This document shows positions 6,194-64,000 of a DNA stretch of 64,000 bases, piece by piece. Numbering within the stretch: position 1 is the stretch's first letter; every line of letters begins with the position of its first letter. The stretch is from the NCBI RefSeq assembly GCF_030253575.1, contig NC_080559.1, positions 34,653,501 through 34,717,500 on the forward strand. Direction: 5' to 3'. The notes beneath the pieces are model-generated. The model ran no database searches and was not told the origin of the DNA. It saw only the letters and a program-made list of their open reading frames with translations. This DNA is from Rhododendron vialii (taxonomy: Eukaryota > Streptophyta > Magnoliopsida > Ericales > Ericaceae). The position numbers and the translations under genes were made by a program.

Positions 6194-9100
6194 TTAAACT
6201 GTGTAGTGCTGTTGAATAGTTTCAATGTCCAATCCCTTCAGCTTCACCACTGATTCAACATGGCCCTTGAGTGTGTGGAGCTCCCTTAACCTACAAAACC
6301 ATAGTAGAAGACCATATTCAGAAACAACATTCGCCCGAATTTGTAAAAAGATAGTAACTGTTCTTGTGACTGAAATAGACGAGTATGTACCTGGCAACTT
6401 CAGCACGTCTTTTCGCTTGCTCGGCTATCTCAGACAACTCGCGATAGCCGCTCTTATCGTTGAAGAGGTCTTGTGAATCTGAGCACTGGAGCCCGTGAAG
6501 TGTACGTTGAGCTAGGGCCCACTGTGCTTCCCTCTCACCTCTACCGTAATCCTTCTTAGTTGTGAAAGCAGTCTAGATCATTTTTAAGGGGGTGTGGTGG
6601 GGAAATGGTTAGTTACAAAATCAAAATGAAAAGTTTTTCCTAGTTGTACTTTAGGGATATGTGCTTTTATAAAGCTTTTGTGTCAATTACCTTGTTCTGG
6701 ATCATATTATCCCAGGCCTTTCCGCTCAAAGCATACCGAATGATGAACTTAAGGACATCGAGAGGGAAGTAGGTAACGACGCTGAAGATCCAAATGACTC
6801 CGGCCCATCCCCATCCGATGCCTTCGATGCGAGCGAATTCCCATCTTGCATACACAGCAATGACAGTAGCAACCTGCAATTAGCAATAACTAATTTGTAA
6901 GTGATCAAATACACTTTAAAGACTTTCCCAAAAAAAAAAAAATGCACTTTAAAGAAAAATCAGGACTCAGGAGAAAAAATCAAATAGAAATTGAACAAAA
7001 GCTCTGAAAAGACTTACCAACTGAGCTGCAATGAAGGCACTGACAAGCAAGAGACCGGGGCGTTCAACAAAGGACCAACTTCGCGACCTGGTCACGAAGA
7101 TGAGTGCTTGACTCACAATACTCACTTGAAGATACAGAGCTGCAGTGAGCTCATCGGTGTGACCCCTAATTGATCTCACTCCGAAAGTATTCTGCAAATG
7201 ATGTAATAATTAGTGATACTATTTCAAATTCTTGGATTTTGTCGGGGTTTAGTATCGAAAAACTTACTGAAAAGAAGTCAGTGTCAGCTGCAAGCCAGAA
7301 AAAGACGACAGTCATGAGAGCAAGGTAGGTTCCAAGGACAACACCGGTGGCAAAAATTTCCTTGAGCTTCCATGAATCTGGCACCGGAGACGGCTTCACC
7401 CTATCCTTTGAGATGGTCATGATGGTTCCATCGTTTAAGATGGCGATGATGAGGACCATGAAAGGCGAGAAATCAAACTTCCATATAAGTGCTATGAACA
7501 TGAATCCCATCACGATACGGATGGTGATTGAAACTGCATAGATGGTGTAGTTCTTCATTCTTTGGAAGATGGCCCGGCTTGTCAACACGGCGCTCACAAT
7601 CACGCTGAGTCCTGGCTCGGTCAAAACAATATCAGAAGCGCTCCTGGCTGCATCGGTTGCATCTGCCACGGCTATACCGATGTCTGCCTTCTTGAGTGCT
7701 GGGGCATCGTTCACACCATCTCCTGTCATTCCACAAATGTGCTTCCTCTCTTGCAGCTTCTTCACAATCTCGTACTTGTGCTCTGCACAGCCCCAAGATG
7801 ATGATGTTCAATCAAACACCTTAGTACATATCTTACGGAATGTTTGGTTCATATTTCTTAGTTTAGTCAAATCAAGAATAAGCAAAAGCGTATAGCTAAC
7901 CAATTGCTTATTTACTTATATTCTTTAGGCAGTTGCCAAACGAACAAATGAGCAAGTGAACCAAAGAGGTCCCTAGTTTGTACCAACATAATTCGTGTAC
8001 AAGTTCAAAGTTCGGCCATGGGTTAAAAAATTTCGGTCACGGGTTCAAAGTTTGCGGCCAGAGGTTTAAAGTTTGCGGCCAACGTTTTTAAGTTTGAGGG
8101 TTCAAAGTTCGGCCACACTAAGATAGTTTTCGGCCACAGATTTTGTTTTGGTGTAAATTCTGTTTGTTAATCGATTTTGTGTTGTTTGATTTAATCCAAC
8201 TTACCAGGGAAGACTCCGGCGAACCCATCAGCCTTCTCGATGAGCTCGTCAATGGGTATCGAAGAGATTGACTCGTCCTTGCACTGGCCAAGAAGTGAAG
8301 ATGATGGATACATATTGGTGCCCATTCCTAGCCTACGCCCAGTTTCTTTACCAATGGCAAGTTGGTCACCAGTGATCATCTTTACATTGACACCAAGGTC
8401 AAGGGCCCTACGGATTGTCTCTGCACTGTCATGCCTAGGGGGATCAAAGAGTGGCAACAGACCCACAAACTCCCATGCCTCACCGGCGCTTTCCTTGGTC
8501 TTCTCTGGGACAGTCTATCGACACATCACAGGCAATCAGATTCAACTTAGTGGAGAAAATCGCAAAGTGCAAAATCATCTCATTTGTTTTATGACACGTC
8601 AAGGAAATTAACCTGTTTGGCGACACCAAGTGATCGAAGGCCGCGTTCGGCAAAGTTGTCGATGATCTCATGGACCTTTTTCGCGACAGCTCCATTAAGT
8701 CCACAGAGTTCAATGATCTAGTGGAATGGGATTTAGTTAGATATGTTCTTGGTGATAGAAACCTTCGTGAATAAGATGGGGCAAGTGGGTAAATTTTTTT
8801 ACTTGTTCTGGAGCACCCTTGCTGCTTCTGTGCCAATTGCCATCAGTGTCAAAGTAGGTGTTTGCTGTGCGCTTATCCACTGGATTGAAGGGCAGGAAAT
8901 GAACCTCTGTGATTCCGGCTCTAGCCTAAAATCCTCAGCAGAAAATAGCTCAGAAAACCTCATTCAATCTCTCTGAAACTTGGTAGAAACAGACTAAAAA
9001 TGGGTATTGCTAACGAGAGCCTAAAGACGTTGGAAAACAACCTTTTGCTATTAGTTCTATTTGAAATGCTCACTTTTTACCAAAATATGTGCGACTATAC

Positions 9101-31319: not shown

Positions 31320-32950
31320 CTCTCTCTCTCTCTCTCTCTCTCTCTGGAGTGCGAGATCTAGTGCATTGTGTGATGCGTTCACAGGTTTTACGTCTATGGA
31401 GGAAGTCAGTGGGTTGATGGGTTCACATTTATGAGCTGTGAATCAGAAATTTTTTTACCGGGCAAAGCAGGTACAAAGTTTGGTACTGTAGTAAAGTTTA
31501 CTAAAGTAGAACAGAATTGGCAGTAGTAGGGCTGTCACTTTTTTGGCAGGGAGTCGTCGATAAGTTCCGGAGCTCAATCTCAATCGTTCAAAAGTGTTGC
31601 GGAGTTCAATCTCAATCGTTCAAAAATGTTTCGGACGATTCGGATCAAAAACAATCTATTACAACTAATAGATTAACTATGTGAATAAGTTATTCTCTTT
31701 TTTTGCAACGATGTTCTAGCCAGCTTGAACGTCTTTCTATTAATTAGTACCGAACAAATATCCAGTGACCATAAGTTTAAAATATTTAACTTTTGTAAGA
31801 TTCAAACCCGTAATCTTGCCACTTAATTGTTTTTATGTCCACTTGGCTTAACCCCCGAAGCTATGGTTGCCACTATTTACGAGTTGTTTGAGAGCAATTA
31901 ATTTTAAACTTTTAGATCTTGAATAGCAAATTCCTACAAAATTTTCAGAGTATACTAATCAATATTTATAAATAAATAAAAATATTTGAATAATAATGAA
32001 ATTGAGCTTTGTGTCTCAATCAATTGAGGTCGGCTTATTTGTAATAATGCGCAAATGTGATTTTGCAAAAAGTTTAGGTGCATGTAAATTTTTATTGAGA
32101 ATTCAAGAAGTTTCTTCACGAAATAATTTTTAGATTTTGCATTCTTGGCACCCGACATATGCTTAACTATTTGTGGTGCTGCCCAGTATACCATTCTAAT
32201 TGGATTAGGAATAAATAAACTTATCTTTTCCCTTTGTTTAAGAGAATTTTCTCACAAGAATGATCATATTTTAAGTGTATGATGTCTATTTATCGACAAT
32301 ATGGAGTGGAGTGGAGTGTTAATTTTTATATTGATAATGTCTCAATAGAGATATTTTATTTTACTAACTAAAAAAATCATCACAAAGTGAATACTTTTCA
32401 AACTTATATATTTTGTTATTATACGTGTGTATAATGTTTGAAAGATTAGAATAATTAATAATTGAGCCAGTGTCGACATGGTGAAAATGTAGTCAAATGA
32501 TAGCGATAGCAATGCAACTCGTGCATGTCTGTTACCTCCATTTTATTTATTTCAACCTGTAAACTATGACTATCAATGCAAATGATCATTATTTTATTGT
32601 ATTATTTTAATCATAATTAATCAATAATTTTCCAGAAACTTTAATGTTCCTTTACAAAGTACGATTAGGCACAGTTACGGGCACATGCACTACTTTGGTG
32701 TAGGCTTTAGTTACAGGCAGAAAAATTTGAAACAACAAATTGTTGCAATCCCATGAAAAGCATTCTTTAGCTCCACCGCGAACAACAGAAGCAAAGCAAA
32801 TGGACCAGAGGACCCTCTAGAGGAGGGGTGAACTACAGAGGTGTAGACGTCTCGGATCGCACACTACACCTTTGTAGTGCACCCCTGCACTACAAAGTCC
32901 TCCGTTCCAAAATTTACGCATATTGGCTTGAAGTTAACTGACGAGATCGT
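31320..32950. other. DUF1068 promoter side and intergenic DNA
   Basis: A (TC)n/(GA)n microsatellite at about 31321-31346 sits directly before the start codon of the DUF1068 gene. The rest is AT-rich. A small imperfect palindrome around 32838-32905 (GTGTAG and CTACACC motifs) is the only other structure noticed. Confidence 0.35.
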
Positions 32951-35235
32951 TTATCGTTCTTGTTTAATATCCCTATAGTACTCATCTATCCATTTCTGAA
33001 TTATCTCCACTTCTTGTCTCCTCTGCTGAACCAGCCACTCCGGATCTTCTTTCGTTGCTGACCGGAAATCCACATGGTGAGCCCCTAAATGGTGAAAATT
33101 TAACGAAGGATCAGAATAGGCTAAACGCAGTCAGTAAATCTTTCGACAGATGCGAAATGGGGAGGCCTAAACTGATGAACAGATGACTAGCTCGCTCACC
33201 TTTTTCAGTCACGAGCGCTGTAATCGTAGCTGATATGTTTTTCAGCACACTGGATAAAGAATTGATCGGACACTTTTGTCAATTACAAGTGCAATGATAG
33301 TAAACATGTGATCGAAATTCAAGCATTTAAATTGCGTTGAACTGACCCGCCTCTGCTCCAAGGGTCTTGCATTCCATTGGAAAAAATGATGTTGCCGCCT
33401 GATCTCTTTAGCACTTGCTCGATTCTCTGCGTTCATAGGAAACATTGAGAAAAGAGATGACGATTTGGATAAAAACCTAGTACAAAATGGACTTTTGTTT
33501 AGTTCCATCTTTGAAGCAACCACAAGGAGCAGGATAAGACATTTGTGAAGGAGATGGAAAAGAAGAAAGATAAAAGGAAATCCTTTTAACTCACATGGCC
33601 ACCGTATTCAGTAGTGATCCAATGTGGGCAAGGCGTAACACCATATTTCGTCCAGCAATTCTCTGCAAACTCCTTGTAATCGTAGGAAGACGGAGGAAAC
33701 ATGCTTTCATTGGAACAAATCATTGGCATTACCATCTCCGTACATGCCTGGAAAAACAAGTACCCAAAATATGTTCTTGTTTTTCCACATTTTTTGGACA
33801 CAGCAACATGAAATTCTGAAGGAAATTTTCGTACAACATGCATGCTATGAAAGAAGGAACACCGTTGAAAACTTGTGTACAATCGCAGGTTGTTTACCAT
33901 GGACTGGCTCCATCGTTACGATGCCATGATGTCTTAATTGGCATTCAAAGCCTTGTATCAGTAGTCATTTGAAAACTGGTTTGACGATTCCAAACGTCAC
34001 ATTACATAGCCCATTTTCAGTAATCTACTTAAACAGAAACAATTTGTGGTGTTGTATTCTGAGTTAACTATTTACCTGCCAGCCCCAACCATGGAGGCCA
34101 TGAGCATCAGTCCCATTTTCCACATTGAAGCATTTTTCTGACCGGGAATAGTTATAATACAAGCTTGCAGCTGCAAAAGCTTTGCTAAGCTTGGTAGCTC
34201 CTGGTGAGATTCCATCGATAATCTTGCACATCTTCATTCAAAATAGAAAAGTTCTCATTTGAAGATACTGAAACTAAATTTGGAATATTTTTGGTTGATG
34301 CAATGAACTTGCAATAGACGTACCTCATGCACAGGATAAGCAGGTAATGGCATCATGAAATTGGCTTCTGTTGGGTAATTCACCATAGCCGTGTAAACAA
34401 ACGCTTCCCATAACCAGTTTCGAACTGAGTACATGGACTGAAGGTTCCTGAAACTCGGAGAAATTATCCACGTAAATCTAAGAGATTGAACAAAGGACTA
34501 AATTAATAATCGAACAAGGAATACTACTTGTGACCGCATTTGACTTTTCATCAACTGCCATTACTACACGTTAGTCATTTCAGCTCAGAATTCCGCCGGA
34601 GAGTCATTTTCCTTCCCTCAAACATGTGATCTAAGTAAAAGCTATGAATCTCTAAAGCTCATTATGTTGGGGAACATGCTTTTAACCTAATCACAATAGA
34701 ATAAGCACAAGAACTTTATTTGGTAGATAAAGATATAAGAAACCATTTCTTTCCCAATGGAACCAAGAGCTCCAAACTGATAAAGAATGATTCAATGTCT
34801 TACGTATCTACAAACAAACTCGTTTGACCCACCATTTGCAACTCAAAGCTTTTGGTTCTAGTTCAAGATTCACACATCTTTTTCCACTTGAGGCCTTCTG
34901 AGTTTGAACTGTGACTCTTGTTGAGTTGAATTACTAAAAGCCTATTACATGGGACGGTTAAGAATTAAGTAAGAGGAGAAAACTCCACATGGTGGGTGCA
35001 TAGACATGGAATTACATTAAAATTCCGTGAAGATAGCTATCCATTTCTTCCCTACTCTTTTTCGATTTCGATTTTTATCACTGAACTCACTTGCAAGTTC
35101 TGAAATTTTTGCTGAGTTCAGCCAACCCTTCTTTTTGAGCTGAAAGAGCTTCCAGTTCTTGCCAGCTCCCCTTGATCACCTCATAGCAATTCAAGCTCGC
35201 ATCCTGCACATGTGCATTAATTATCACCACTAGTG

Positions 35236-35267
<32 letters not shown>

Positions 35268-36487
35268 TTTCCAACACTGACCTTGTAATCCTTGGTTACA
35301 CCATCATAGAAGCTGGACCATGGGGTTATATCATCAAACTGCAATATCGGGGCTGAAGATGCTAAAGCTCCAATTGCCATATGAGGATATTTCAGTCTAA
35401 ACCAAGCAGCCAGCACTGTTTGAGAGAGAGAGAGAGAGAGTATTATTGTGAACAATGATAAAGAAGTAACAAAGAATGGCATTAATTGCTGTCCAAAGGC
35501 TGTGTGACATATTATTGGAAATAAATGCTCCCAGTACAAGAAAAATCCATGTCAACAATGGAAAGCATAAAAAAATGTGGAGAATCCAAATTTTCACAAA
35601 ACCTCAAGGACAATCTCAAAGATCAACCAAATGTCAGACCAAATCATCTCATAAATACCAAAAACTGAGTGTGTACGAAGGGACTGTTTCTCAACTTACT
35701 TCCTCCATAAGACCCACCAAAGACAACCACAGGGGATGCCTCAGAAGAGTGGTTCTTCTTCAAACTCCTAATCAAAACTGCGAAGTCTGCCAATGCTTGC
35801 TGTGAATTCAAGTATCCCAGTGTCTCTGCAGATTTATAGGAATCCTTCCCAAATGGCATCGATTCTCCATAAAACCTATGCTGTAAGTAAATATCACACA
35901 CACAAACAAAGACTAAGAGATTATGGAACTTGGGTTCAATTCTTTAATTTTCCATGACTACCCAGATAACAAAGCAACAAATATCTTCAAAACCCATCAA
36001 AGTTAGAGCAAATTATATTGGGAAAAAAAGCAACAAAAAAGGTGAGTGTGCTTATTTTAAGAGAAACCCAGATGGTGATTTTTTACTTAACAGAACACGG
36101 TCATACTTCAATGAAGACAAGAAGAGCATTGAATTTGGGGGCAATGTCAAGCATAAATCCAGTGTTGGCCGCAAACCACTCAATATTGCCTTCATTGCCT
36201 GTGTAGACAAAGATTGGCCCCCCTTGGCGCCAGTAGTGGTTGTTGACGAGGTACTTTTGGTAGAAGATTTTGGAGCTCTGGGGTTGGAAAGTGAAATGGT
36301 CTAGGAGCTGAGGAAAGTAATGGGTCTTGAATGGAATCTCTGGCTTTTTTGAGGGCTTGTCTTGTTTCCGCAGAGAAGATTGATACGTTGTTAACCTGGG
36401 AAAGAACGTTGGGGTTGATTGTGTTCTTGGTATTGTTAAAGATATGGTGAGGAGAATTAGGAAGAGGAAGGGCGAAGATGAAGCCAT
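32951..36487 (-). CDS. lysosomal Pro-X carboxypeptidase-like serine protease (S28)
   Basis: Ten minus-strand exons join in frame to 501 aa: 36487-36107, 35880-35700, 35415-35282, 35203-35091, 34447-34324, 34231-34076, 33747-33595, 33426-33347, 33249-33200, 33084-32951; all introns are GT-AG. The family removes C-terminal residues next to proline, usually in the vacuole or apoplast. A signal peptide (residues 1-24, SSSPFLFLILLTISLTIPRT) starts the protein. The catalytic triad is visible as Ser184 in FGGSYGG, Asp435 in NGMQDPWS and His460 or His461 in KGAHHVDF. QGGPIFVYTGNEG marks the conserved N-terminal hydrolase core. The Asn in YYNYS is a possible glycosylation site. Length is typical and the C-terminus is complete. 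GA microsatellites sit in introns near 35235 and 35420. Confidence 0.96.
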
Positions 36488-37603
36488 GCTCTCTCCTTCT
36501 CTCTCTTCTCCCTCTCTGTTACTTTTTACTGTGAGAATGATTCAGAATAATTGGAATACGAGTACGTTGTTTTGTACTCCCACCATCTCTTTTACGTTGG
36601 CTTTTTGTGGAGTTTGTGCTAAATTAAAGTTCTTTAGCGTGGATGAGGGTGAATCCGTGAGCTTTTTGCCATCAGACTGGAGCATGGGCCAACTGGCCTC
36701 TTGTCTTCATCTACCTACAGGAAGTGCCAAATGTGGTTAGTTCATGGATTATCAATACACGAATGATTTGAATTTAACGTGCCAGATTTTGAACGAAACG
36801 GTTCGAATAAGGTTCACGACGAGGCCCACTGAAAGGGCATAACAAGTTACCCTTGTATAGCTAGTTATATAATTCAGTCGGACTAATTGCGAAGTTATAG
36901 CTAGTTATTGTACGAGTAATCATCATCCTAATAAACTCTACCGTCAAAACATTTTGAATGATATTTGTAAGCCCATAGGCCCAGAAACGGCCAATTATAT
37001 CTTGCACTACGCAAGCAGAGAACGCAATTGAAGGAACAAAGTCCAATTATTTAGCTACAAAGAAGTCACTCAGTTCCAAGAGTTTACAGTAATGTAAGTG
37101 ACTACTTTTATTTTTTGTGAAGGGACAGAAACTGGGCCACGACCACGAGCATTGTGCTTTTAGCTCTGATAACTTGACGCCAAATAGGTACAGTACAAAC
37201 AAACAGAAGGCTCGAAGGATGGGATTCTCCCCAACTGCTACCCTACTTTTCTCAGTTTTTGAGTCCAATAATTCAGTGGTTTGTAGAAAGGAAAGGTCTA
37301 GGAACATAGATTTAAAAGTTAGAAACACAAATTTGGATACAAATTATGTCTGAAATCGTTCGATTCATGTGTGTATTTGTGCATTAAATATTTTCCGATA
37401 TCGTTGTATTCGAGTAAATATACCCTAGGACTTATGGGTTGGTCTAGATGGAGAACCCCAGATAAGATGGGATCCCAATTGCCGTATTGGGCCTATCTGA
37501 AGAGGCTGAGCCCAATCCCACATCATATGCTGTAGCCTGTAGCACAAAACTGTTCGAATTCGGGGTCAAGTTCATTTTCGAGTTCAATTATTTTATGAGC
37601 AAA
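36488..37603. promoter_or_regulatory. upstream region of the S28 gene and intergenic DNA
   Basis: A CT-rich stretch just upstream (36490-36520) is the probable leader on the minus strand. No other gene is seen. Confidence 0.35.
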
Positions 37604-40228: not shown

Positions 40229-40463
40229 GTAAAGAGACATAATCAAATTTTGTCTTAGCTGCTCCATAGGATTGCAAATTGATGGTGAGAATTTTTTATA
40301 ACCCAAACGTTGCCGTTTAGGGGCTACTGTGCGCAGCAAAGCCCTGAGCCAATTAAAATGACAGAGGGAGGTAATTAAAAAGGCTAAGGGAGGGTAAAAG
40401 CGGGAAAAGGGTGTGGGACCGGGAGGGGTGTGGTGTCAGGGGGTGGGAAAAGCTCTCCCTCTC

Positions 40464-40480
40464 CCTATATATATATATAC
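40464..40480 (+). promoter_or_regulatory. TATA box of the lipocalin gene
   Basis: A run of alternating TA (CTATATATATATATAC) lies about 60 bp before the start codon at 40535, after CT-rich sequence. Position fits a plant core promoter. Confidence 0.55.
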
Positions 40481-40534
40481 ACATCCATACATGTCTCGAA
40501 ATCCCAAATAATCTTCCTCCGCTCTTTTCCAAAA

Positions 40535-42355
40535 ATGGCCAAGAAAGAGATGGAAGTGGTGAAGGGTGTAGACCTAGAGAGGTACATGGGTCGGTGGTAC
40601 GAAATAGCCTCTTTCCCATCAAGTTTTCAACCCAAGAATGGGATCAACACAAGGGCTACGTACACCTTGAAGGAAGATGGGTCTACTGTGAATGTGTTGA
40701 ATGAGACTTGGAGTGATGGGAAGAGAGTGTCTATTGAAGGGACTGCTTATAAGGCTGACCCTAAGAGTGAGGAGGCCAAGCTTAAGGTCAAATTCTATGT
40801 TCCACCTTTCCTTCCCATCATACCTGTTGTTGGAGATTACTGGATTCTGTATCTTGATTCTGATTATCGGTATGCTTTGATTGGCCAGCCCTCCCGGAAA
40901 TATCTTTGGGTATGTTTCTATGTCTTGTTGGAGTACTTTGTTACCTTTGATAATAAAATACTTGCTATGTATGTGATTCTTTAGATTTGTTAATAGAATA
41001 CATACGGCATACTCCTATTTAAATTGCACAATTTATGGGCGTTGTATCATCTGTCCTGAAGGTTGGCTTGCTGGTCTTGACTTGAGACTTAGGGTTTGCT
41101 CACTCTTCAGGTTCCCTCACCTTCGCACAAGCGTGTGAATATACTGATGTGGGCGTGGGAGGGGCGGTAGGAATTAGGGGATTAGTGTGAAGTGTGCGCA
41201 AGCTGGCCCAAACACCCTGCATCACCGAAACAAGAAAGATATCATTAGTCCTGAATTCTATATTCCGCAATGTCAGTGTCCTTATGGCCATATGATCCGC
41301 ATGATCGTACATCGAAATTTGTGTATTTTGAGATTCTCACACATTTTTGTTGGATTTATTTTAGCTGGTTGGGTTAAAAATTGCATCGGATTACATAAAC
41401 CTTGTGATCTCATCTTAGGTGCTTTTAGGTATCTGTGTATGGAGGGATTACGGTTGTCCTTGCTCTTCAAACAATTGAAATCACAGAAATATGCCGAAAA
41501 TGCAATGTTTGGAAATGTGGTATTGCCGTATTGGGTTTGTTTGGTAGGATTACTCATCCTAGGAAATTATATTCGAGAAATCTATGAGACTATGACAAAT
41601 TAATCGGGGCCTTATTTCAAGTACTGGGCAGTGAAAGGAAAATAAAGTAAAGATGTGGTATTCGTGGGGATATTTTCTCTTGTTTAAATTTCTGATTTCG
41701 TTCATAGTTTTGGTTACGAGACTGTTGAGCTATCCCTGTTTGTCCATAGGTACTTATTGTCTAGTAATGCTACACAACATGAATTGTGCAAAAAATTCTT
41801 ACTGGCTGAATGAGTGAATGGTTGGTCAGAGTTTGGTTGCAAAACGAAACCATTAAGATACCTGGTAATCCATTTTCAAGTTATTGTTGGAGTGAAGTTA
41901 GGTATGTTTGGGTAGTGTTTGGTTGTTGGAATGACTTCTCGCAAACGAATGAGATGGTTGTTTCTTGACCCTCCCCATGGAATTACATCAACGAACCAAA
42001 TGCCGGATGTAGTATCTTCAGGGAGTGAACATTCTATTTCCTGCCTTCATTCTAGTGAACCAAACATTGCATTGGCACTTTTATTAGTAGCTTTGTCTGT
42101 TTTTGTTACCCAAAATTTGGTTTGAGACTTGCTTACTAAAAATCTTGGGGTGGTGCTATTTTCTTCTAGATACTATGCAGACAGAACCATCTTGATGAAG
42201 AGATCTACAATCAGCTTGTGGAGAAGGCCAAAGAAGAGGGTTATGATGTGAGCAAGCTTCACAAGACAACACACACCGAACTCCCACCAGAGGGAGATGA
42301 AGGCCCCAAGGACTCAAAGGGCATTTGGTGGATTAAATCCCTACTAGGGAAATAG
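40535..42355 (+). CDS. TIL: temperature-induced lipocalin (TIL)
   Basis: Two exons (40535-40909 and 42170-42355) join in frame to 186 aa. Temperature-induced lipocalins are small beta-barrel proteins that associate with the plasma membrane and chloroplast. They protect membranes from lipid peroxidation under heat, cold and oxidative stress. The lipocalin signature GRWYEIASFPS (residues 19-29, with Trp21) is present. So are RATYTLKEDG, VKFYVPPFLPIIPVVGDYW, the second-exon helix DEEIYNQLVEKAKEEGYDVSK and the terminal WWIKSLLGK, all as in Arabidopsis TIL. There is no signal peptide, as expected. The start is MAKKEMEVVKG; an upstream in-frame ATG at 40430 lies before the TATA box and is not used. 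The intron is 1.26 kb, GT-AG, with no gene in it. Confidence 0.96.
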
Positions 42356-52886: not shown

Positions 52887-53576
52887 CAAAGTTGTCAATT
52901 CTGTACTGGCCAGTTTACCATTTTTACTACTGGAATGGTACGTACCGGTACCGATCTGTATTCAGTACCGTTTCGGATTTGCCACAATTTTTTTTATTTA
53001 TATTCAATATATGTTACCTGATTGCAAAGTTTGAAGTATAAACATAAATAAAATTTAAGCAAGACTTCCAAACAATAAACCAACAGATTTCATTCATTGA
53101 ACTACTCATCTATTGACTAATATTCATATGCAAACCAAGTTCTCAAAACAGCTGGTTCAAAAATAAAAAAAGGTCCTCAACACAGTTGATATATTACTCC
53201 TATACTCACTGGATCATTTCTCTCCTTCACATCTTACTCCTATACTCCCTGCCTCACTCTGTCGTTTCTCAGGTTAGCCACACAAGCACTGAAGCACTCA
53301 CGTGAAAAAAAACAGTGTAAATTTGTACCCTGCCTCACTGTGTCGTTTCTCAGGTTAGCCACACAAGCACTGAAGCACTCACGTGAAAAAAAAGAGTGTA
53401 AATTTGTACCGCCGGAACGCCGAAAAATGTCCGAAACACACCGGTATTGTCCGATACATCCGGTATTTGCCGGAACAGTCCGGTATTTCAAGCGGTACGA
53501 ATCGCTAGTCTTTGCGTTCCGTTTAAGCTCCGGTACAGTACATGTCGGCCAGTACGGAACGGATTTCACAACTTTG
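52887..53576. mobile_element. hAT-like element with 8-bp target duplication
   Basis: The left end CAAAGTTGTCAATTCTGTAC matches the inverted right end CAAAGTTGTGAAATCCGTTC. CACTGCAT flanks both sides exactly (52879-52886 and 53577-53584), as for hAT transposons. Sub-terminal regions carry GGTACCG and CCGGTA motifs. Inside, an 81-bp unit is tandemly duplicated (about 53250-53411). No transposase. Confidence 0.85.
53250..53411. repeat. 81-bp tandem duplication inside the hAT element
   Basis: Two copies of a unit containing TCGTTTCTCAGGTTAGCCAC and CACTGAAGCACTCACGTG lie head to tail with only a few differences. Confidence 0.8.
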
Positions 53577-53783
53577 CACTGCATACATCTTCCAATAATC
53601 TTCAACTAGGCCAGCCCTTCAACTGTTAAACGTAAAACCTTTTTTCTCATTTTTCTAATGGGAAAACTCAAAAAATCTGGCCAAGATTGCTACTCCATGC
53701 TACACAAATCAAAATCAAATTAACAAGAACCTCCCCAGAAAAAAGGAAAATCTTCGAAAGAGAGAGATATGAAGAGAGACGAC

Positions 53784-54172
53784 AAGGCTCAGATTCGCCT
53801 TTTCTCAGTCAAATGAGGCCCTCCACCATGGCTGCAACAACAGGAGCCATGAAAGACTCACTGAGTTACCCCGCCAAAACAAGAGTAGTCCTCAAGTTCC
53901 TGATTTTGTTCGAAAATATCATCACAGCCTCATTCAAATTGGCACAGAGAGAGAGAGAGCGCGCTTTTCACAGCCACTTCAATATATATATATATGTACG
54001 AGTGTATGTATGCAGAAGGGCTGTTGAATCTTGTATATATGATAATCATCGGCTCCAAGAAGATCGATCTGGAAAGAAAGAGATCATCTTGTACAGAGAG
54101 GGCAACCACCCTTAGAAACTTCCCCATCCCTTTGATCGAGCCTCATACTTAAACTAATGAGATTTTTAGCCC
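53784..54172 (-). ncRNA. structured RNA gene family, unit alpha-1
   Basis: I do not recognise a known RNA. Read on the minus strand, block I has AAGGGTGGTTG (54113-54103) and its partner CAACAGCCCTT (54026-54016), which can form an 11-bp stem with one mismatch; GAGCCGATGATT lies between. Block II (53931-53784) starts GAGGCTGTGATGA and ends CTGAGCCTT. TGATGA (53924-53919) matches a box C, CTGA (53792-53789) matches a box D, and GAGGCT can pair with AGCCTT. CTGTTGTTGCAGCCATGG in block II is shared with the other units. Reading frames are not shared between units, which argues against a protein. The start is placed about 25-30 bp after a TATA box. The snoRNA-like reading is inference. Confidence 0.5.
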
Positions 54173-54192
54173 TAAACGCTTCCTCACGTCCA

Positions 54193-54200
54193 TATTTATA
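54193..54200 (-). promoter_or_regulatory. TATA box of unit alpha-1
   Basis: TATAAATA on the minus strand. TAGGGC, a variant of the telo-box-like motif of sister units, follows about 25 bp downstream. Confidence 0.5.
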
Positions 54201-55164
54201 TTGGCCCGCGCCGAAAGCCAGGCGGGTGTTTCAGTCATTCTGCCAATGACAGCCATTTTCAGAGAGGTCCAAGGAAATTCTATTCACAGCCCCACTTTTC
54301 CTCGATAAGGCTGCGTTCTTGTAAACTTATGTCAATGCTGACCAACGGGCTTGTAGCCCAACGGTAACTTCTGGTCCAGAGAAATTCTAGGGAAAATGAC
54401 GGCCCAGGACTTCACACCCCATCTTTTCCTCAGTAAACATGCAATGGCTAACAAATTCTGAAGACCCATTTCAGAGAATTGATATCACTTTGTTATAGCA
54501 GTGCATCTTTTTCTGAGAGAAAATTCTTAGCACGGCAGGAAGTAGGGGTCGTGAGTTCGATCCCAAATCTCCACCACAAGGCACACTTATTTTTTTAAGT
54601 ACTTATTATCCGCTTTACAAAATTGGTCATTCTCACAATACATCACCTTTAGGCTCCGTTTGTTTCGACGACAAATATTTTACGATGTAAATTGTAAAAT
54701 GATTTTGGAATAAATAATTTTTGTGTAAAATATTTTTCATTGTTTGGTACACAAATAAATTTACCACAAGTGACCAACAAAATAATGAAAGGCACCTTAA
54801 CTGAATCAACAATTGAAGGTCCGTTTTTTTTTTAAATACACACCGAGCAGTGAGTACCGTGAAAGTAATGAAAGTAGGAGTAGTTCTAAACTTAATAACC
54901 ACAAAACAAGACCCAGCATAATACTTTCTAACCAATAAATCAACAAACGAATGAAGTGAAAAAAACAAAAACCAAAAAAAAAAAACAGCAAAAAACAAAT
55001 ACTAAGCTTTAGAATCATCAAAATACCCCCAAAAAATGCCCCAATTAAGACTTGTTTCTATCTAAAATCACAAAAATCAGATCAATAAATATGTGAACTG
55101 TAAATGCATGTAGGGGTGTATGTGGGTGTAATATATGCGTAGAAATTGAAGGGGATAAAGGGTA

Positions 55165-55801
55165 AAGGCTCAGATCTGTGTATGATCGGACGAGAATCCG
55201 ACTCTGCCATGGCTGCAACAACAGTTGTCCATAAGAGCCTCCTACAGACCCTCTGTGTGCCCCATAAGAGCCTCCTACAGACCCTCTGTGTGCCCCGCCA
55301 AGCAACGGGTTAGATCGTTGTCTCTAAATTTCTGCTCCGAAACTGATCCTCACAGCCTTATACATATCGCGGCAAAGACCGAAAGGGATCGGCCTCGAGA
55401 TCAATGCCTCATGCTTTGGGGGTTGCTTCTTCTTCTTCTTAGGTCTCGGTTCAAAAATCTAAAAATCTCGCAAGCGTTGTCAACTCCTTCGGGGCAATCC
55501 ATACGAAACTTTGTCCAATTGCCCAAAAAGGAAGTAATTTAGAACGGAGGGAGTAGTAGTTTTTGGTGAACACTGAATAATAACTCTATTTCCTCTGCTT
55601 TTGGATACCTTTGGGGGTAATCAATGAAATTTTCCCTGGCTGTTTTACTAGCAAGTAAAAACACACACACAGACAAGGGCTGTTGATTTTGGGAAGAAAA
55701 TCATCGGCTATGATGATCAGGTATCATCTCGTTGCTGAGAGGGGGCAACCACCCTTAGAAACACTCATTCCCCCTTTTGAAGCCTCATTCTTGAGCAGAA
55801 C
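55165..55801 (-). ncRNA. structured RNA gene family, unit beta-2
   Basis: Same layout as alpha-1 with a longer middle. Block I has TCTAAGGGTGGTTGCCC near its start and CAACAGCCCTT at its end; ATCATC and GATGAT form a small inner hairpin. Block II (55359-55165) begins AAGGCTGTGAGGAT and ends CTGAGCCTT, so AAGGCT pairs perfectly with AGCCTT. The box C-like motif is degenerate (TGAGGA). TCGGA and TCCGA near 55185-55200 form a hairpin. A 33-bp unit within block II is tandemly duplicated here only. Confidence 0.5.
55229..55294. repeat. 33-bp tandem duplication within unit beta-2
   Basis: Two exact copies of a unit beginning CCATAAGAGCCTCCTACAGA. The sister unit beta-4 has one copy, so the duplication is recent. 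Confidence 0.85.
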
Positions 55802-55824
55802 CCTACATCCCTTCTCACCGTCAA

Positions 55825-55832
55825 TATTTATA
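55825..55832 (-). promoter_or_regulatory. TATA box of unit beta-2
   Basis: TATAAATA on the minus strand, with TAGGGTT (telo-box-like) about 25 bp downstream. Confidence 0.5.
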
Positions 55833-55974
55833 TTGGAATTTTATGGGAAGGATCCCCCAAACCATGAACTAAAAAAATAGGACCTGCTTAGCATTATCCT
55901 TTTATATTGCTCATGGTTCAAGAGACCCAAAGCGAACAGTCCAAAAGAGGGAAGAAGATATGAAGAGAGAAGAC

Positions 55975-56357
55975 AAGGCTCAGATTCGCCTTTTTCTCAG
56001 ACAAATGAGGCCCTCTGCCATGGCTGCAACAACAGGAGCCATGAGACTCACTGAGATACCCTGCCACAACAGCAAGACGTCTCAAGTGCCTGAATTTGTT
56101 CGAAAACATCATCACAGCCTCATTCAAATTGTTCCATAGAGAGAGAGAGAGAGGGAGAGAAGGGCTTTCACAGCCACTTCAATATATATGTATGTGCATG
56201 CATGGCTATTGGGAAGGGCTGTTGACTCTGATTGAAAATAATCATCGGCTCCAACACAATCGATCTGGGAAGAAAGAGATCGTCTTGTACAGAGAGGGCA
56301 ACCACCCTTAGAAACTTCCCATCTCTCTGATCGAGCCTCATACTTAAACTAATGAGT
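55975..56357 (-). ncRNA. structured RNA gene family, unit alpha-3 (promoter disturbed)
   Basis: Very close to alpha-1. Block I has TTCTAAGGGTGGTTGCCC and CAACAGCCCTT. Block II (56121-55975) has GAGGCTGTGATGATG, CTGTTGTTGCAGCCATGG and CTGAGCCTT. Similarity to alpha-1 stops near 56357. The CCTCACGTCCATAT promoter string of alpha-1 reappears only near 56540, so about 170 bp have been inserted and no TATAAATA remains. This copy may be silent. Confidence 0.45.
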
Positions 56358-56584
56358 GTTTCCACTAAAGTAAGACTCCGTTCCGCTAATATTCTTATTT
56401 TTTAAGTAATTATTTTCCCTTTACGAGACAGGTCATTCTCTCCAAAACATCACCTTTAGCATGAAAGCAAAAAAATATAACCACAACGCACCCTTATATT
56501 GGCCTGGGTGAAAGGGCGTTCGTTAGCGGAAACGCACCCTCACGTCCATATAGACGGATGATAAAAGCAGGAAGAGCATCATCA

Positions 56585-56660
56585 TTGTCCCAAGGGTTAG
56601 TCTAGTTGGTTGCTCCCCCACACAATTGCCTGTGTTCGATTCTTGGGTTTAGGTCGCAAG
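56585..56660 (+). mobile_element. SINE head, tRNA-derived
   Basis: TTAGTCTAGTTGGTTG resembles a tRNA A box and TGTGTTCGATTC a B box about 40 bp later, the spacing of a tRNA-derived SINE promoter. The tail cannot be traced because a MITE follows. Confidence 0.45.
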
Positions 56661-56665
56661 AAAGA

Positions 56666-56843
56666 AGACCCGTTCGTTTTGGGATTTTGGATTTGAATTT
56701 GTAGGTAATGAGTGTAGAGATAAATGTAATGATTAGAAATATAGGTAATGATTGGAGATAGGTAGAGAGAAAAATGAGAATAATGATTGAAGAGAAATAG
56801 AATAATGATTAGAATCCAAAACCCTTAACCGAACAGGGTCCAA
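56666..56843. mobile_element. short MITE with GACCCGTTCG ends
   Basis: The left GACCCGTTCGTTTTGGGATT matches the inverted right GGACCCTGTTCGGTT followed by GGGTTTTGGATT. The interior repeats GTAATGATT. A related copy is at 58236-58461. Confidence 0.55.
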
Positions 56844-57399
56844 ATTTCCGGTGAATCCCCTAGTCTGGGAAGGAATTGGTCAAGGGGCGTGACATGATGC
56901 TTTTGCTAAACTGGCGGACACATTACTCCAAAATATGCTCACTCTTCCTGGCAAAAATAAGTGACCAGTATTTCTCTCCAAAAAAAAAAAAAAACAGATA
57001 GTAAGAGGCACTTATTTCAATCAACAATCGAAAGTCCTTTTTAACCCATGCACAACCAAGTACCATGAAAGTAATGAAATCATGAGATCACTCTAATTCC
57101 TTCCATTGCTGATTGCTCTAATCACCACAAATACTTTCTTACCATTGAATCAACAAACGAATGAAGTGCAAAAGACAAAAACAAAAAACAGCAAAAAAAA
57201 AAAAAACAAAATACGAAGCTTTGGCCGAATCATCAAAATCCCCCCCCGCCCCCCCAAAAAAAAAAAAAAAATACCCCAATTAAAATTTGCTTCCATCTAA
57301 AACCACAGCAATCAGATCAAGAAATATGTAAATGGTAAATGCATGCACATATGTATGTGTATAATATATATGCGTAGACTTTGAAGGGGCTAAAGAGTA

Positions 57400-58031
57400 A
57401 AGGCTCAGACCTGCGTATGATCGGACGAGAATCCGACTCCGCCATGGCTGCAACAACAGTTGCCCATATAAACCTCCTACAGACCCTCTGTGTGCCCCGC
57501 CAATACACGGGTCGGATCCTCCTCACTGCATCATAACTGCTCCGAAACTGATCCTCACAGCCTTATAGGTATCGCGGCAAAACCCGAAAGGGATTGGCCT
57601 CGCGATCAATGCCTCTGCTTGATTTTAGCCGAACTTAGCCTTAATCTTAGGGTCTGCTGCTTCTTCTTCATCTTAGGTCTCTGTTTCAAAACCCTCAATC
57701 AACTCCTTCGCGGCAGCCATACGGAACTTTGTCCGGTTGCCCGAAAAGGAAGTAGTAATAAATTGGAACGGAGGGAGTAGTAGTACTAGTAGTTTCTGGT
57801 GAAAACTGAATAATCACTCTGTTCAACCTCAGGGGGTAATCAGTGAAATTTTCCCAAGCTGTTTTACCAGCAAGAAGAACACACACACACACGCGGAGAG
57901 AGAGAGAGAGAGAGAGAGATACATACAAGGGCTGTTGATTTTGGTAAGAAATCATCGGCTCTGATGATCTTCAGAGGGGGCAACCACCCTTGGAAAGACC
58001 CATCCCTCTTTTGGAGCCTCATTCGCAGAAC
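57400..58031 (-). ncRNA. structured RNA gene family, unit beta-4
   Basis: Sister of beta-2. Block I has AAGGGTGGTTG (57991-57981) and CAACAGCCCTT (57937-57927), with ATCATC and GATGAT forming an inner hairpin around AGAGCC. Block II (57564-57400) begins AAGGCTGTGAGGAT and ends CTGAGCCTT, with a perfect 6-bp terminal pairing, and has the TCGGA/TCCGA hairpin. A GA microsatellite (57897-57920) follows block I. No long ORF is shared with the other units. Confidence 0.5.
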
Positions 58032-58054
58032 CCTAGACCATTTACCATTGCCAG

Positions 58055-58062
58055 TATTTATA
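58055..58062 (-). promoter_or_regulatory. TATA box of unit beta-4
   Basis: TATAAATA on the minus strand with TAGGGTT about 20-25 bp downstream. Confidence 0.5.
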
Positions 58063-58235
58063 TTGCCGCTGGTTTGTTTTCTTCCTTCTTCACCACAACT
58101 TTAGATGTTCTATTCTAATTCATTTTTAAAAAAATTCCCTCTAGATTTTTTAAAATTTCGTATTTTCAACATTTCTCTCATTATCTCTCCATTTATTATC
58201 CTTACTATTTTTTTAAAAACTTTTCAAATATCAAA

Positions 58236-58461
58236 CCAAACACAATATTAAAGTTTTGGATTTTGGATTCTGAATTCTAATAATTATTTTAGGATTTTAG
58301 ATTTTGGATTCTAATCAATATCCTATTTTTCTTCAATCATTACTCTTATTTTTCTCTCTATATCTTTTCAATCATTACCCTATTTCCAATTATTACTTTA
58401 TTACTCTCTACAATCATTACCTATAAATCCAAATTCAAAATACCAAAATGAATGGAGTCTT
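58236..58461. mobile_element. short MITE, second copy
   Basis: The interior repeats the AATCATTAC and GGATTCTAAT motifs of the MITE at 56666-56843. The ends read CCAAACACAAT and ATGAATGGAGTC. The inverted terminal match is weak. Confidence 0.4.
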
Positions 58462-58469
58462 AGTGCTGG

Positions 58470-59415
58470 AGTATTTTTTTACCTTCTTTTCCCTGACCAT
58501 AAATGTTACTCTACCATCTCAATTTGTTTGTCCTATTATTTGACTTTTTAATGTTTCAAATTATTTGGCCAATTTGAAGTCGACTCATTTAAGTTCTATT
58601 AATGCCCTTTCTCTTTTTAAAGAAAAATACACATTAGAGAACGTGCACCTTGTGTAATGCTATAAAAATGGAGGGTATATTGTGGAAAATAAACTTTTCA
58701 AGAGTAATCATTTTTTTCGGTCGAATGAAAACTCCAAGAGTAATCATTTGTGCCTCCTAAAAAGATTGAAATCCTCAAAATAGACAAGCAAATTGAAACG
58801 AAAGGAGTAAATTAAATTTATCCGCTTTGGGTAGGAGTATGTTATATTGAGTTCTACCACAATTAGTGTAATTTTGTTACCTCGCTCAAAATTGGATGAA
58901 CATTACTACTGTAGCCAGTTCTATTGTCGCCACTTCAGTGAAAAACACTTGTCCTGGTTTAGAACCAAAACTATATGTCTGAATTAGCCGTCTGTCCATG
59001 TCCATTATTGATGATCTTGTAGTAGGAATAACGATAAAATAATTAGTGCAAAATGAAGGGAACTGATCATCGAGACTCAATAGAAATACTACTCAAAGAA
59101 AATAAAGCTCACCCTTTTTCTTTTTCTTTTTATTTTTTTAAGAAAATGTAAACAAATTGCTCTCCGCCTTTTTACACCGATATTGTGATCGTAATCACAT
59201 TTCATATATCACTAATGTCATTCTTACAGTCAGTTGGCTAGATCTTCTGCACCTCGTTGGAAGGTTTGGAGTTTGAAACCCTCCGATTATGTTATTTTTT
59301 ACTAGTTTAATGGATCTATTAATTAGGTTGAGCTTCATAGTGATTATGAACTTATTTTTTACTTAATTCTGATACTTATGAGATAATGACCAGTCTCGTA
59401 AAACAAAATATAATA
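58470..59415. other. AT-rich DNA with one possible SINE scrap
   Basis: No gene. Around 59230-59285, GTTGGCTAGATC and GGAGTTTGAAACC weakly resemble tRNA A and B boxes. Confidence 0.25.
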
Positions 59416-59417
59416 AA

Positions 59418-59555
59418 TTTAAAAAATAATAAATTTAACAGAACGAGGACTAACTCACAAATTATATTAATAACAAAAAATAAGTATTTAAAAAATAATA
59501 AATTTAGCAGAACGAGGACTAACTCACAAATTATATTAATTGTAGAGAATAATTA
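59418..59555. repeat. 69-bp tandem duplication
   Basis: Two head-to-tail units contain AATAATAAATTTA followed by GAACGAGGACTAACTCACAA, with a period of 69 bp. Confidence 0.75.
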
Positions 59556-59886
59556 CCACCTTTTTGTTTTTGTTTTTGTTTTTTTTAATACTTTTTGTTC
59601 TCCGACCTAGTATTTGGTTCCCCATGTAGAAAAATAGTACTAGTAATACAGGACCAATTGGTTTTGTCGGTGCAAATGCCATTTCTTTACCATGGTTTTT
59701 CACCCAATTCTCTGTCCCCTCTTTTCCACCCATTTCTTTACCATCACGTTGCAAGTTTCGAAGTTTTCACTCCCAGTGAAAGCATATCCATTACTGCACA
59801 CAAAAGCAAGAAGCGTCATAAAGGATCTAGCTCCTATCCAGTACAATACTAGTTTGGACTATCCAGATCCGGATAGTTTAAATTTA

Positions 59887-61889
59887 AGGGTTTTGTTAAT
59901 ATGTGCCCCTGAAGGCGGGCACATATTAAGGCACATGTTACGACTCTATAAATGAAGCCAACTAATCCCACTAGTATAGAAAATAGTGACAGTAATTGTA
60001 ATATTGGGCAAAGTAAGAAACTTGTTCGATGGACAAAAATACCCTTTACTTTCTACTGCCTTCAGTTTTTTCCCTCTATTGTTTTTTTTGGTAAATGTTT
60101 TTTTCCCTCTAAATTCATTAGACAACAATAACCCCAACACCTGTGCGTGGGAACAATTGTTTTTTTTTTTTAAATTTTCCCCTTCTTATCTCTAGATACA
60201 AAAGATCCATTCAATTCCTTTGCTGGATGAAAACTTATTTTTCATAATTTTTTTTATTAAAACTTATATTTTGTAATTTTTGTTCAGATTTTCATCATTA
60301 TTGTTGAATTAAATCATTGTTCTCAATGTTTGGACCGAAGTTGAAATTTTTCATATGGGACAATATTGTAGGCAAAAAAAAAAAACCAATTATTTGGTAT
60401 TTTTGTGTCTTTTTTAGTGAACCTTTTTTGTTTTTTGTCATAATTTTTTACTTTTCAGACTTATCTCGAGACAAATGATTGATCTAAAAAATAAAACATG
60501 AATTCAGCAAAAATTCAAAAAGAATGGCAAGAATACCCAAAATAAGTGTGAACTCACCATGAGAATAGGCTTGTCGATAAAGTGGAGGATCATTGAAGGG
60601 ACTCAAATATGCCAAATAAAAAGGAGATCCATTCTCAAAGAAACTCTTTTCGAAAAAAATCTCCAAAGAAGGAAATTAGGTTAAGGAGTTATTAGAATTT
60701 GGTAGTGAAAAATAAAACGGCAAAGTGTTAAGAAATTGCTATCTTTACTCACTCATCATAGAATTAATGAATTAAGTACGATATTTATGTATTCATCCAA
60801 TAAAAAAAATCAAGCACAATAAAATAGCTTCTCATTGCAAGTCTGCAATTGCCCATGAGAGTTGAAACGGTTAGGAGTAAAGTTGAAAGGGCAAAGAATT
60901 ACAGAGGGAAAAAACATTTACCAAAAAAAGTGGGAAAAAAAATAAAGGGAGGGCAGTAGAAAGTCAATGGTATTTTTGCCTCATCGGAAAAAAAAAAAAC
61001 AAGTTTCTCGCTTTGCCTAATACTACAATTACTACACTATTTCCTACACTAGTGGGGTTAGTTGGCTTCATTTATAAAGTCCTAATAAGTGCCTTAACAT
61101 GTGCCTTAAGAGCATCCATAGTAGTGAAATAAGCAAAACAAAAAATTGTTAAATCTAGTAATATTGGATTAAAAAAGTGTTTACATTGAAATAATCAAAC
61201 TTAGTAACCTCTTAATAACTCATCAAAATTTGCTTTTTAATAATCAAAACTAACAATATTTTATTAATAACCAAATTTTATCTTTTAATCAAAAACACCA
61301 ACATTACACAAAAACATTTTATCTCTCTCTCTCAACAATGTTTGCAAGAAATAATTTTAAAAAATTGTAACTTTTAAATATTTTTTTCTATTTTTTTTTA
61401 AAACAATTTTTTCAAAATTTTTAAAAGCTATAAGTAAATAAAGTGTGTTTTTCAAAAAAATATTTTTGAAATTTCAAAACTCTTTTATAGAAAACAGTTT
61501 TTTTACACAAAAACTGTATTTAAAGTTTTTAAAATTTCAAAATTATTTATATAAATACAATTCTTTCAAAATTTCTAAAAATTGTATTTATCATTTTTAA
61601 GTAAACAAAGTGTGTTTTTTGAAAAACTGTTTTTTGTTTCGAAAAACTTTTTTTTTGAACTATTTATAACATAAACTGTTTTTTCAAAAAATATGCGTAA
61701 AATAAAGAAAAACAATTTGGAGATCTCATTGGTTTTGATTATAAAAAAAAAATAACTAATATAAAATTTGATATTGTTAACTTTAGCTACTTCTAAATAA
61801 ATAATCAAAATTTGATGTGACATATTTTAATTATTCACATTTGCTTATTCCACTGCTGATGCTCAAAAGACACATATTAACAAAATCCT
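59887..61889. mobile_element. 2-kb inverted-repeat element with a nested MITE
   Basis: The ends are GGGTTTTGTTAATATGTG and, inverted, GGATTTTGTTAATATGTG. Inside them are arms of about 210 bp (left about 59928-60118, right about 60890-61105) sharing AAGGCACATGTTA, ATAAATGAAGCCAACTAA and TTTCTACTGCC. The middle (60120-60850) has no transposase-like ORF. Another element is inserted near the right end. The superfamily is undecided. Confidence 0.6.
61105..61864. mobile_element. nested MITE with AGAGCATC ends
   Basis: The left AGAGCATCCATAGTAGTG and the inverted right GAGCATCAGCAGTGGAATAA match, both followed by AATAAGCAAA. The interior is extremely AT-rich. It interrupts the right end of the surrounding 2-kb element, so it is younger. 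Confidence 0.6.
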
Positions 61890-62202
61890 AAATTTAATAC
61901 AATACAAGTAGTTCAGATTTTTTCATACATTTTAACCAGTAAAAGAGTAAAACTACATCAAAATTATTAATTGCAGCAAATGAACGATCTCGTTAAAGGC
62001 TGTTTTCTCCGATCCAAAACATGGACCGGACCGATCCGGATCCGGATCTGCATCATAAACATCTCACCGGAACCCAGTTCCTTTCATCTCATCCAAATGA
62101 ACTTTACCAAATTTAAAGAATTTAACCCATTTCGATGGGTACCACAAATAACCTCGAATAATATACTAGTAGAATAATATGAATTGTAGAGAAAGAAAGG
62201 AT

Positions 62203-62752
62203 TAGGCTCAGATCTGTGTACCATCAGACGAGGATCCGACTCTGCCATGGCTGCAATCACAGTTGCCTACGAGGGAAGAAAAAGAAAACCCCTTTTCATC
62301 TCTCGAATACCCTCTGTGATGCCCCGCCAGGTAAACGGGTCGGATCCACAACGTCCGAATCATCTGCTCGGGAAAGCTATCGTCACGGCCTATTAGAGAT
62401 GGGATGTTTCCGGTGAAGTGAAGTATTCGTCAGAAACCTCAGGAGCACTGAATAATTTCTCCGATAACTGGGAAGATTGGAGATGCTCTTAGTTTTGATT
62501 ATTCCATTGCGGATACTCTTAGACCCTGTTCTGCTGGTAGTACTTGTTCTGGAAATGGAGACTGAAAAAACTACGAGTACACCAATGGTGTAAACACACA
62601 CACACACGCACACAGAGGGGAGGGCTGTTGAGTTGTGGGGGAGAAATCATGGGCTCAGATGATGGGGATCATCTTGTATGTTTACAGAGAGGGACAACCA
62701 CCCAAAGAAATCCCAATTTCTCTCTGTTTGGAGCCTCATTCTCGAGCATATA
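62203..62752 (-). ncRNA. structured RNA gene family, unit beta-5 (isolated)
   Basis: A more diverged beta copy. Block I has GGGTGGTTG and CAACAGCCC. Block II (62392-62203) begins TAGGCCGTGACGATA and ends CTGAGCCTA. The outer pair of the terminal helix is T-A here and A-T in beta-2 and beta-4, a compensatory change, although one inner pair is lost. The conserved centre reads GGCAACTGTGATTGCAGCC. TAGGGTT follows the TATA box as in the sisters. Confidence 0.5.
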
Positions 62753-62776
62753 ACCCTAGTTACTTTCCCAAACCCA

Positions 62777-62784
62777 TTTTTATA
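62777..62784 (-). promoter_or_regulatory. TATA box of unit beta-5
   Basis: TATAAAAA on the minus strand, with TAGGGTT about 25 bp downstream. Confidence 0.5.
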
Positions 62785-62844: not shown

Positions 62845-63093
62845 GGCAACCAGAATCCGGTTCAGAAATTTTCTTAAAAAGTAAATAGTTTATTTTATAT
62901 TTTTAAATTTAAAAATAAAGTAAATAAAAAATAATTTTTTAATTTTTTTGCATCGTATAAAAGATCTCGATGAGATCTTTCAAATAAGATCCATATTGTA
63001 TATTTTTAAATTTCAATAAGTCCATAATTTTTAAGCTTAAAATTACTTTTTTAAAAAATAAGGACTTATTTTTAGTTTCGGAACAGAGCCTAA
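62845..63093 (-). mobile_element. AT-rich MITE, minus orientation
   Basis: Read on the minus strand it starts AGGCTCTGTTCCGAAACT and ends with TTTCTGAACCGGATTC. The body AATATGGATCTTATTTGAAA and GAGATCTTTTATACG is shared with the copy at 63751-64000 in the other orientation. Confidence 0.5.
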
Positions 63094-63750: not shown

Positions 63751-64000
63751 GAAAAGACTCTAATGCTCTATTCCGTAACTCAAAATAAATATTTATTTTT
63801 TAAGAAGGTAATTTTAAGTTTAAAAATAATATATTTACGCAAATAATTTTTCTATTAATATGGATCTTATTTAATAGATTCCATCAAGATCTTTTATACG
63901 GTGCAAAAAAAATTAACAAAATATTTTTCATTTACATTATTTTTAAGTTTGAAAATGTGAAATAAGCTGCTTATTTTTTACGAAGGTTTCTGGAACGGGA
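63751..64000 (+). mobile_element. AT-rich MITE, plus orientation, reaching the window edge
   Basis: Begins near GCTCTATTCCGTAACTC and ends TTTCTGGAACGGGA at the last bases of the window. It is the opposite-orientation copy of the element at 62845-63093, so the two can pair as a long inverted repeat. Confidence 0.5.

Follow-up and report, generated by a model that had tools for sequence, protein, structure and literature searches.

Five minus-strand units in the 64-kb window (the whole stretch of DNA that was analysed), here called u1–u5, are read, with a probability of about 0.6, as genes for large box C/D-type RNAs. Such RNAs would be unusually large relatives of the small nucleolar RNAs, which assist in ribosome production. 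Each unit comprises a conserved 5′ domain (block I), a variable spacer and a second conserved domain (block II), and a kink-turn of the box C/D type, AGGC-N-GUGANGA...CUGA-GCCU, closes block II in all five units. The evidence for this reading comes from the conservation of the two blocks, from the positions that are invariant within the kink-turn, from a hairpin predicted in common between the boxes, and from promoter motifs upstream of most of the units.

The units lie where the original prediction had placed them (53784–54172, 55165–55801, 55975–56357, 57400–58031 and 62203–62752), as both nhmmer and blastn bear out. Models built from the five recovered block I in every unit of the 64-kb window at E-values of 1.1e-33 to 4.5e-28 and block II at 1.3e-29 or better, a 33-nt internal repeat splitting the u2 match to block II in two; these nhmmer E-values are low by construction, because the units themselves built the models. 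Between-lineage blastn matches, which are independent of the models, gave for example 5e-19 for u2/u5 and 2e-08 for u1/u4. No further copies were found by nhmmer in the 64 kb, the sole extra match being one to block II with an E-value of 0.23. Evolutionarily, the units count as three lineages, not as five independent witnesses. One segmental tandem duplication of ~2.2 kb gave rise to the pairs u1/u3 and u2/u4, and u5 stands alone. The homology of this duplication extends past the unit ends into the flanks, with 84% identity in the part holding u1/u3 (53765–54161 versus 55956–56356) and 70% in the part holding u2/u4 (54920–55835 versus 57130–58065). Between lineages, identity amounts to 65–76% in block I and 59.5–74% in block II. 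The positions of the blocks and of the upstream motifs are given in Table 1.

Table 1. Conserved blocks and promoter motifs of the five units, in coordinates of the 64-kb window.
Feature	Position	Strand	Detail
u1 TATA box (TATAAATA)	54193..54200	-	54 nt upstream of ATGAGGCT
u1 telo-box-like GTTTAGGG	54170..54177	-	23-24 nt past TATA start
u1 block I (5′ domain)	54015..54146	-	132 nt
u1 variable spacer	53936..54014	-	79 nt
u1 block II, box C/D domain	53785..53930	-	stem AGGC, box C GUGAUGA, box D CUGA, stem GCCU
u2 TATA box	55825..55832	-	
u2 TAGGGTT	55799..55805	-	
u2 block I	55674..55788	-	115 nt
u2 block II, box C/D domain	55165..55359	-	box C GUGAGGA, box D CUGA, 5-bp stem
u3 block I	56213..56341	-	129 nt
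u3 block II, box C/D domain	55976..56120	-	box C GUGAUGA
u4 TATA box	58055..58062	-	
u4 TAGGGTT	58029..58035	-	
u4 block I	57926..58022	-	97 nt
u4 block II, box C/D domain	57400..57564	-	box C GUGAGGA
u5 TATA box (TATAAAAA)	62777..62784	-	
u5 TAGGGTT	62752..62758	-	
u5 block I	62619..62739	-	121 nt
u5 block II, box C/D domain	62203..62392	-	box C GUGACGA, 5-bp stem UAGGC/GCCUA

Within the recent pairs the blocks have diverged by ~11% and the spacers by more, 26% in u1/u3 (29 of 273 block I and II sites differ, versus 21 of 82 spacer sites; Fisher P 0.0017) and 17% in u2/u4 (28 of 257 versus 48 of 285; Fisher P 0.048). Adding the 3′ flank lowers the P values to 9e-9 and 0.002, respectively, the u1/u3 flank (43% divergent) being perhaps non-homologous in part, and divergence upstream of block I is 28% and 41% in the two pairs. 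Minus-strand reading frames are interrupted by one-base indels and stops; the frame that opens with ATGAGG, for instance, spans 20, 7, 57, 52 and 30 codons in u1–u5 and is shifted by one-base indels, in keeping with the earlier claim that frames are not kept. Because the blocks diverge less than the spacers while the frames are broken, the pattern fits selection at the RNA level and not at the protein level, and this preference, already voiced in the original prediction, is strengthened by the common fold of block II described below. We conclude that the units are likely structured RNA genes. Short strings are retained across the copies in general, as had been proposed, although u5 deviates with TTGGGTGGTTG, CAACAGCCCTC and CTGTGATTGCAGCCATGG; the CTGAGCC that had been said to end block II is present in all five units.

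Structurally, the kink-turn is what suggests a class for these RNAs. Box D (CUGA) adjoins a terminal stem of 4–5 bp that it shares with box C in every unit, the letters permit the tandem G-A and the G-C pairs of a kink-turn in all five, and the pair at the outer end of the closing stem reads G-U in u1 and u3, A-U in u2 and u4, and U-A in u5 (the last taken from the scan match described below, at a place where the alignment has a gap). All 16 kink-turn positions are invariant in the five units, compared with 74 of the 152 full columns of block II (hypergeometric P 4e-6), and the two variable interior positions are the extruded nucleotide (T, T, T, T and C in u1–u5) and the position facing the U of box D (T, G, T, G and C). 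This pattern of invariance is what a C/D kink-turn predicts. Both strands of the 64 kb were also scanned for a stem of at least 4 bp followed by N and RUGANGA and, 90–260 nt on, by CUGA and the stem, a pattern fixed after the motif had first been noticed by eye in these units; there were six matches, one per unit at the aligned place and one elsewhere, against a mean of 0.3 and a maximum of 2 in 40 runs of order-1 Markov controls. The match elsewhere (31941–32124, minus strand) has GTGAAGA as box C and a 4-bp A/T stem, and likely arose by chance.

The units could instead be structured RNA genes of another kind, whose resemblance to C/D RNAs is a coincidence kept by shared ancestry. We judge this unlikely, though several features lean toward it: box C is an exact RUGAUGA in u1 and u3 and departs from it at one position in u2 and u4 (GUGAGGA) and in u5 (GUGACGA), making it non-canonical in three of the five units; no C′/D′ pair was recognised by eye in the units; the lineages number three only; and one of the six scan matches falls outside the units. 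Coincidence would, however, have to explain why exactly the kink-turn positions are invariant, and it sits poorly with the low yield of the Markov controls.

Between box C and box D lie 132–180 nt occupied by a long hairpin, and all five units are predicted to form the same one, in which GGC...GCC encloses a helix joining two strongly conserved segments (191 of 218 cells paired in the hairpin consensus). The u2 hairpin contains a 33-nt tandem duplication (~55228–55292, minus strand), and u2 may therefore fold differently. For block II, the consensus energy reaches a z of −3.7 on the minus strand, with 0 of 200 column shuffles as good, and −2.1 on the plus strand, with 3 of 200; folded singly, the sequences have z values of −1.6 to −3.3 (minus strand) and −0.6 to −3.9 (plus strand), and for u5 the plus strand gives the better fold. 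For block I, the consensus z is −2.7 on the minus and −3.0 on the plus strand (2 of 200 shuffles on each), and single sequences on the minus strand range from −0.9 to +0.9, no better than shuffles. Since the consensus values are similar on both strands and the single sequences resemble shuffles, both a fold and a strand for block I are unsupported. The original prediction of a structured RNA is thus supported for block II through its common fold, but not for block I, which carries no strand-specific structural signal. Formation of the stem proposed within block I (AAGGGTGGTTG/CAACAGCCCTT) is feasible, yet the inner pairs show no variation and the outer ones are missing in u5, which makes the stem neutral as evidence. 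A covariance check on the aligned units, suggested earlier as a means of support, returned two-sided changes in 4 of 44 consensus pairs, and covariation is therefore modest, indeed thin. A spliced spacer was also considered and set aside, inspection revealing no conserved GT at the end of block I.

Upstream, a TATA box and TAGGGTT had been expected to come first. The TATA box is found in four of the five units, 40–54 nt ahead of ATGAGGCT, and TAGGGTT in u2, u4 and u5, but u1 carries GTTTAGGG in its place and u3 has neither motif, the 120 nt upstream lacking a TATA box and the 60 nt upstream a telo motif. The u3 promoter has apparently been lost, and u3 may be silent. A telo-box-like 7-mer accompanies four of the five units, where 0.04 per 60 nt would be expected by chance, and the full 8-mer occurs within 60 nt in u1 only. 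The heptamer starts 24, 27, 27 and 26 nt after the start of the TATA box in u1, u2, u4 and u5, respectively, which keeps it close to the expected start site; block I follows at a variable distance of 13–30 nt. The promoter reported for clusters of plant snoRNAs and for ribosomal-protein genes combines a telo-box and Site II with a TATA box (PMC4660826, PMC3022908). Site II occurs within 500 nt upstream of u1 only (1/5), so the match to this published type is partial.

Rfam searches covered the window at the gathering score, the region at E-values up to 10, and u1, u4 and u5 individually, with u2 and u3 included only within the window and region. They gave chance-level matches in the units and no credible family, and likewise no credible match of the units to an Rfam snoRNA model, be it in the window, the region, or u1, u4 and u5 taken singly. 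The earlier failure to place the family in a known plant class thus persists as far as Rfam is concerned, but the block II kink-turn now suggests box C/D RNAs. RNase MRP and U3, both considered as candidates, are not supported, neither having a credible Rfam match in the units. Two exact unit patterns occur in 0 viral contigs, and a 22-nt match in a goat-gut Clostridia contig, where similarity extends over ~31 nt only, was judged to be due to chance. The family may be unpublished, in that it has no Rfam match and six of its conserved strings occur in none of the papers searched.

Among known RNAs, the units are most like the atypical C/D RNAs (U3, snR4/snR45/U13), in which a conserved segment is followed by a C/D domain with a hairpin. 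U3 consists of a 5′ domain, a hinge and a 3′ C/D domain ending just past box D, a layout that the units share, but the units lack an Rfam U3 match and no upstream sequence element, which a plant U3 gene is expected to carry, was noticed by eye. With canonical plant box C/D snoRNAs the units have in common the closing stem, box C, box D, and the telo-box-like motif and TATA box upstream. They differ from canonical guides in their 132–180 nt from box C to box D with a long hairpin and no recognised C′/D′, in their extra conserved 5′ domain and apparently one transcription unit per RNA, and in having Site II in one of five units and a sequence preceding box D that differs between lineages (u1/u3 versus u2/u4/u5). 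The snR4 and snR45 RNAs are described as atypical members of the C/D class, in which box C is preceded by a conserved segment and a guide-like hairpin lies deeper in the molecule (PMC5464676); the units share both features with this group, including plant and vertebrate U13, and are distinguished from it by a 5′ domain of 97–132 nt and a linker of 79–358 nt before box C. GUT15/CR20 resembles the units as a conserved plant non-coding RNA (PMC10226578), but GUT15 is reported to give rise to a tRNA-like molecule, whereas ARAGORN finds 0 tRNA genes in the window, a search that a degenerate tRNA-like segment could escape.

The family may also be a known conserved plant non-coding RNA that is missing from Rfam, above all HID1, a serious alternative but one that we consider improbable. 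HID1 is nuclear and has a length of 236 nt (PMC4563214) and four predicted stem-loops (PMC4394487); two of its domains are described as snoRNA-like, and moss is said to carry a sequence homologue (PMC10226578). Compared by description only, it resembles the units as a conserved structured plant RNA with snoRNA-like domains, but its 236 nt fall short of blocks I and II alone (270–318 nt) and of the ~360–620 nt reached with the spacer, and a box C/D reading does not predict action at the PIF3 promoter, where HID1 is described as working. Should the units turn out to be HID1 or some other RNA already published, that RNA could be explained through protein binding at the kink-turn.

Functionally, if the units do encode large box C/D-type RNAs, each unit with an intact promoter would be a stand-alone RNA polymerase II gene. 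Its transcript would start around the telo-like motif, 24–27 nt past the start of the TATA box, cross the conserved 5′ domain and then the fast-evolving linker, and end just beyond the CTGA-GCCT closing stem (CTGAGCCT). The block II kink-turn should bind 15.5K/SNU13, NOP56, NOP58 and fibrillarin, and these proteins would protect the ends of the RNA and carry it to the nucleolus or Cajal bodies, while the conserved segments of block I and the hairpin may contact pre-rRNA as a putative target. Directly before box D, no pairing run of at least 11 nt was found with 18S, 5.8S or U6. The RNA is probably not a methylation guide, because of the length and long hairpin of the C-to-D interval and the difference between lineages in the sequence preceding box D; by analogy, an orphan acting like U3 or the snR4/snR45 type would be more likely. 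In yeast, all but 4 of the 46 C/D RNAs guide methylation (PMC12848939), and given this rarity of non-guides such a plant family would be informative. The plant repertoire would then gain a large orphan box C/D-type RNA family, of which three diverged paralogous lineages, lying side by side, would reveal which parts are under selection.

One candidate contact for such an RNA is helix 34 of 18S rRNA, where the units might act in the manner of snR4 or as a chaperone, a partnership that we regard as doubtful. The segments GGGGCAUCACAGA (u5) and CUGUUGUUGC (u1–u4) can pair with the abutting 18S stretches UCUGUGAUGCCC and GCAAUAACAG, which lie on the 3′ strand of helix 34. For block II, strict scoring ranks this site first among 18S positions, and 2 of 479 shuffled targets reach the strict score when aligned columns and two balanced arms are required; but 27 of 479 do so when the arms are summed, as do 14 of 136 under strict scoring without aligned columns. 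Lenient scoring puts the best position elsewhere, with 147 of 412, 249 of 412 and 22 of 123 shuffles reaching the score, none of which is significant. The whole-unit family peak at the site (211.5) lies below the control mean (219.6, 134 controls), and the site is among the six best positions listed for u3 and u5 only. Moreover, in each unit one arm pairs with the other, and the target stretch is itself partly self-complementary, so the arms are not independent evidence; on account of their mutual pairing, we treat the helix 34 pairing as a lead only. Of the 18S stretch used, 21 nt match the V8f primer (PMC12483254).

In yeast, the guide for acetylation of C1280 in helix 34 is snR4 (PMC5464676, PMC12848939). 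It pairs around that cytidine, whereas the pairing of the units is only putative and its best strict site lies on the strand opposite to that of the acetylated cytidine. Two-arm searches of 18S, with arms at most 2 nt apart, do not peak at the target cytidines of helices 34 and 45, and the same pairing searches gave no significant 18S site for block I. The complementarity looks striking by itself, but given the controls and the mutual pairing of the arms it is a weak lead whose significance and, under lenient scoring, also rank depend on the method. It would be a long shot, then, that the units are composite plant C/D RNAs with their own TATA/telo promoters and a 3′ C/D anchor, whose 5′ domain and hairpin engage pre-18S helix 34, either as an snR4 counterpart or as a new pre-40S folding chaperone. 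Rfam would have missed such a composite lineage because conservation is confined to short blocks, with a linker whose length varies more than fourfold.

A short conserved peptide such as MAESDSRPII(H/R)RSEP, read from a CCATGG start in a frame that is open through the 17-codon extract in u2, u4 and u5, is very improbable given the stops in u1 and u3, the amino-acid changes in u5 and the one-base indels in block I. Hardly more credible is a non-autonomous transposon family in which AGGCTC...GAGCCT would be the short terminal inverted repeats. Complementarity of the ends spans ~6 nt, but inspection found no target-site duplication at them, the homology belongs to a tandem segmental duplication that extends into the flanks, and the search of the 64 kb gave no other copies.

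Repeats of other kinds lie around the units. Between u4 and u5, the segment 59918–61105 has 71-nt inverted repeats (89% complementary) with nested inverted arms and resembles a non-autonomous transposon of ~1.2 kb. Inverted copies flank u4 (56665–56821 and 58302–58461, 83% identity over ~160 nt) and occur just past u5 (62857–63089 and 63765–63998, 79% identity over ~235 nt), and beside u1 an 81-nt unit is repeated twice in tandem with 98% identity (53247–53408). Elsewhere in the window, coding fragments at 3017–5002 (plus strand), 7169–7807 and 9484–9882 (minus strand), 35090–36541 (minus strand) and 40388–40984 (plus strand) correspond to a Nodulin-like/NFD4 transporter, a P-type ATPase, an S28 carboxypeptidase and a lipocalin; seven of the nine coding fragments scanned matched a Pfam family, the P-type ATPase match being weak and mostly under the curated cut-off. 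The sole Rfam match at the gathering level in the window is an H/ACA snoRNA, snoR100, at 5225–5332 on the plus strand (86 bits).
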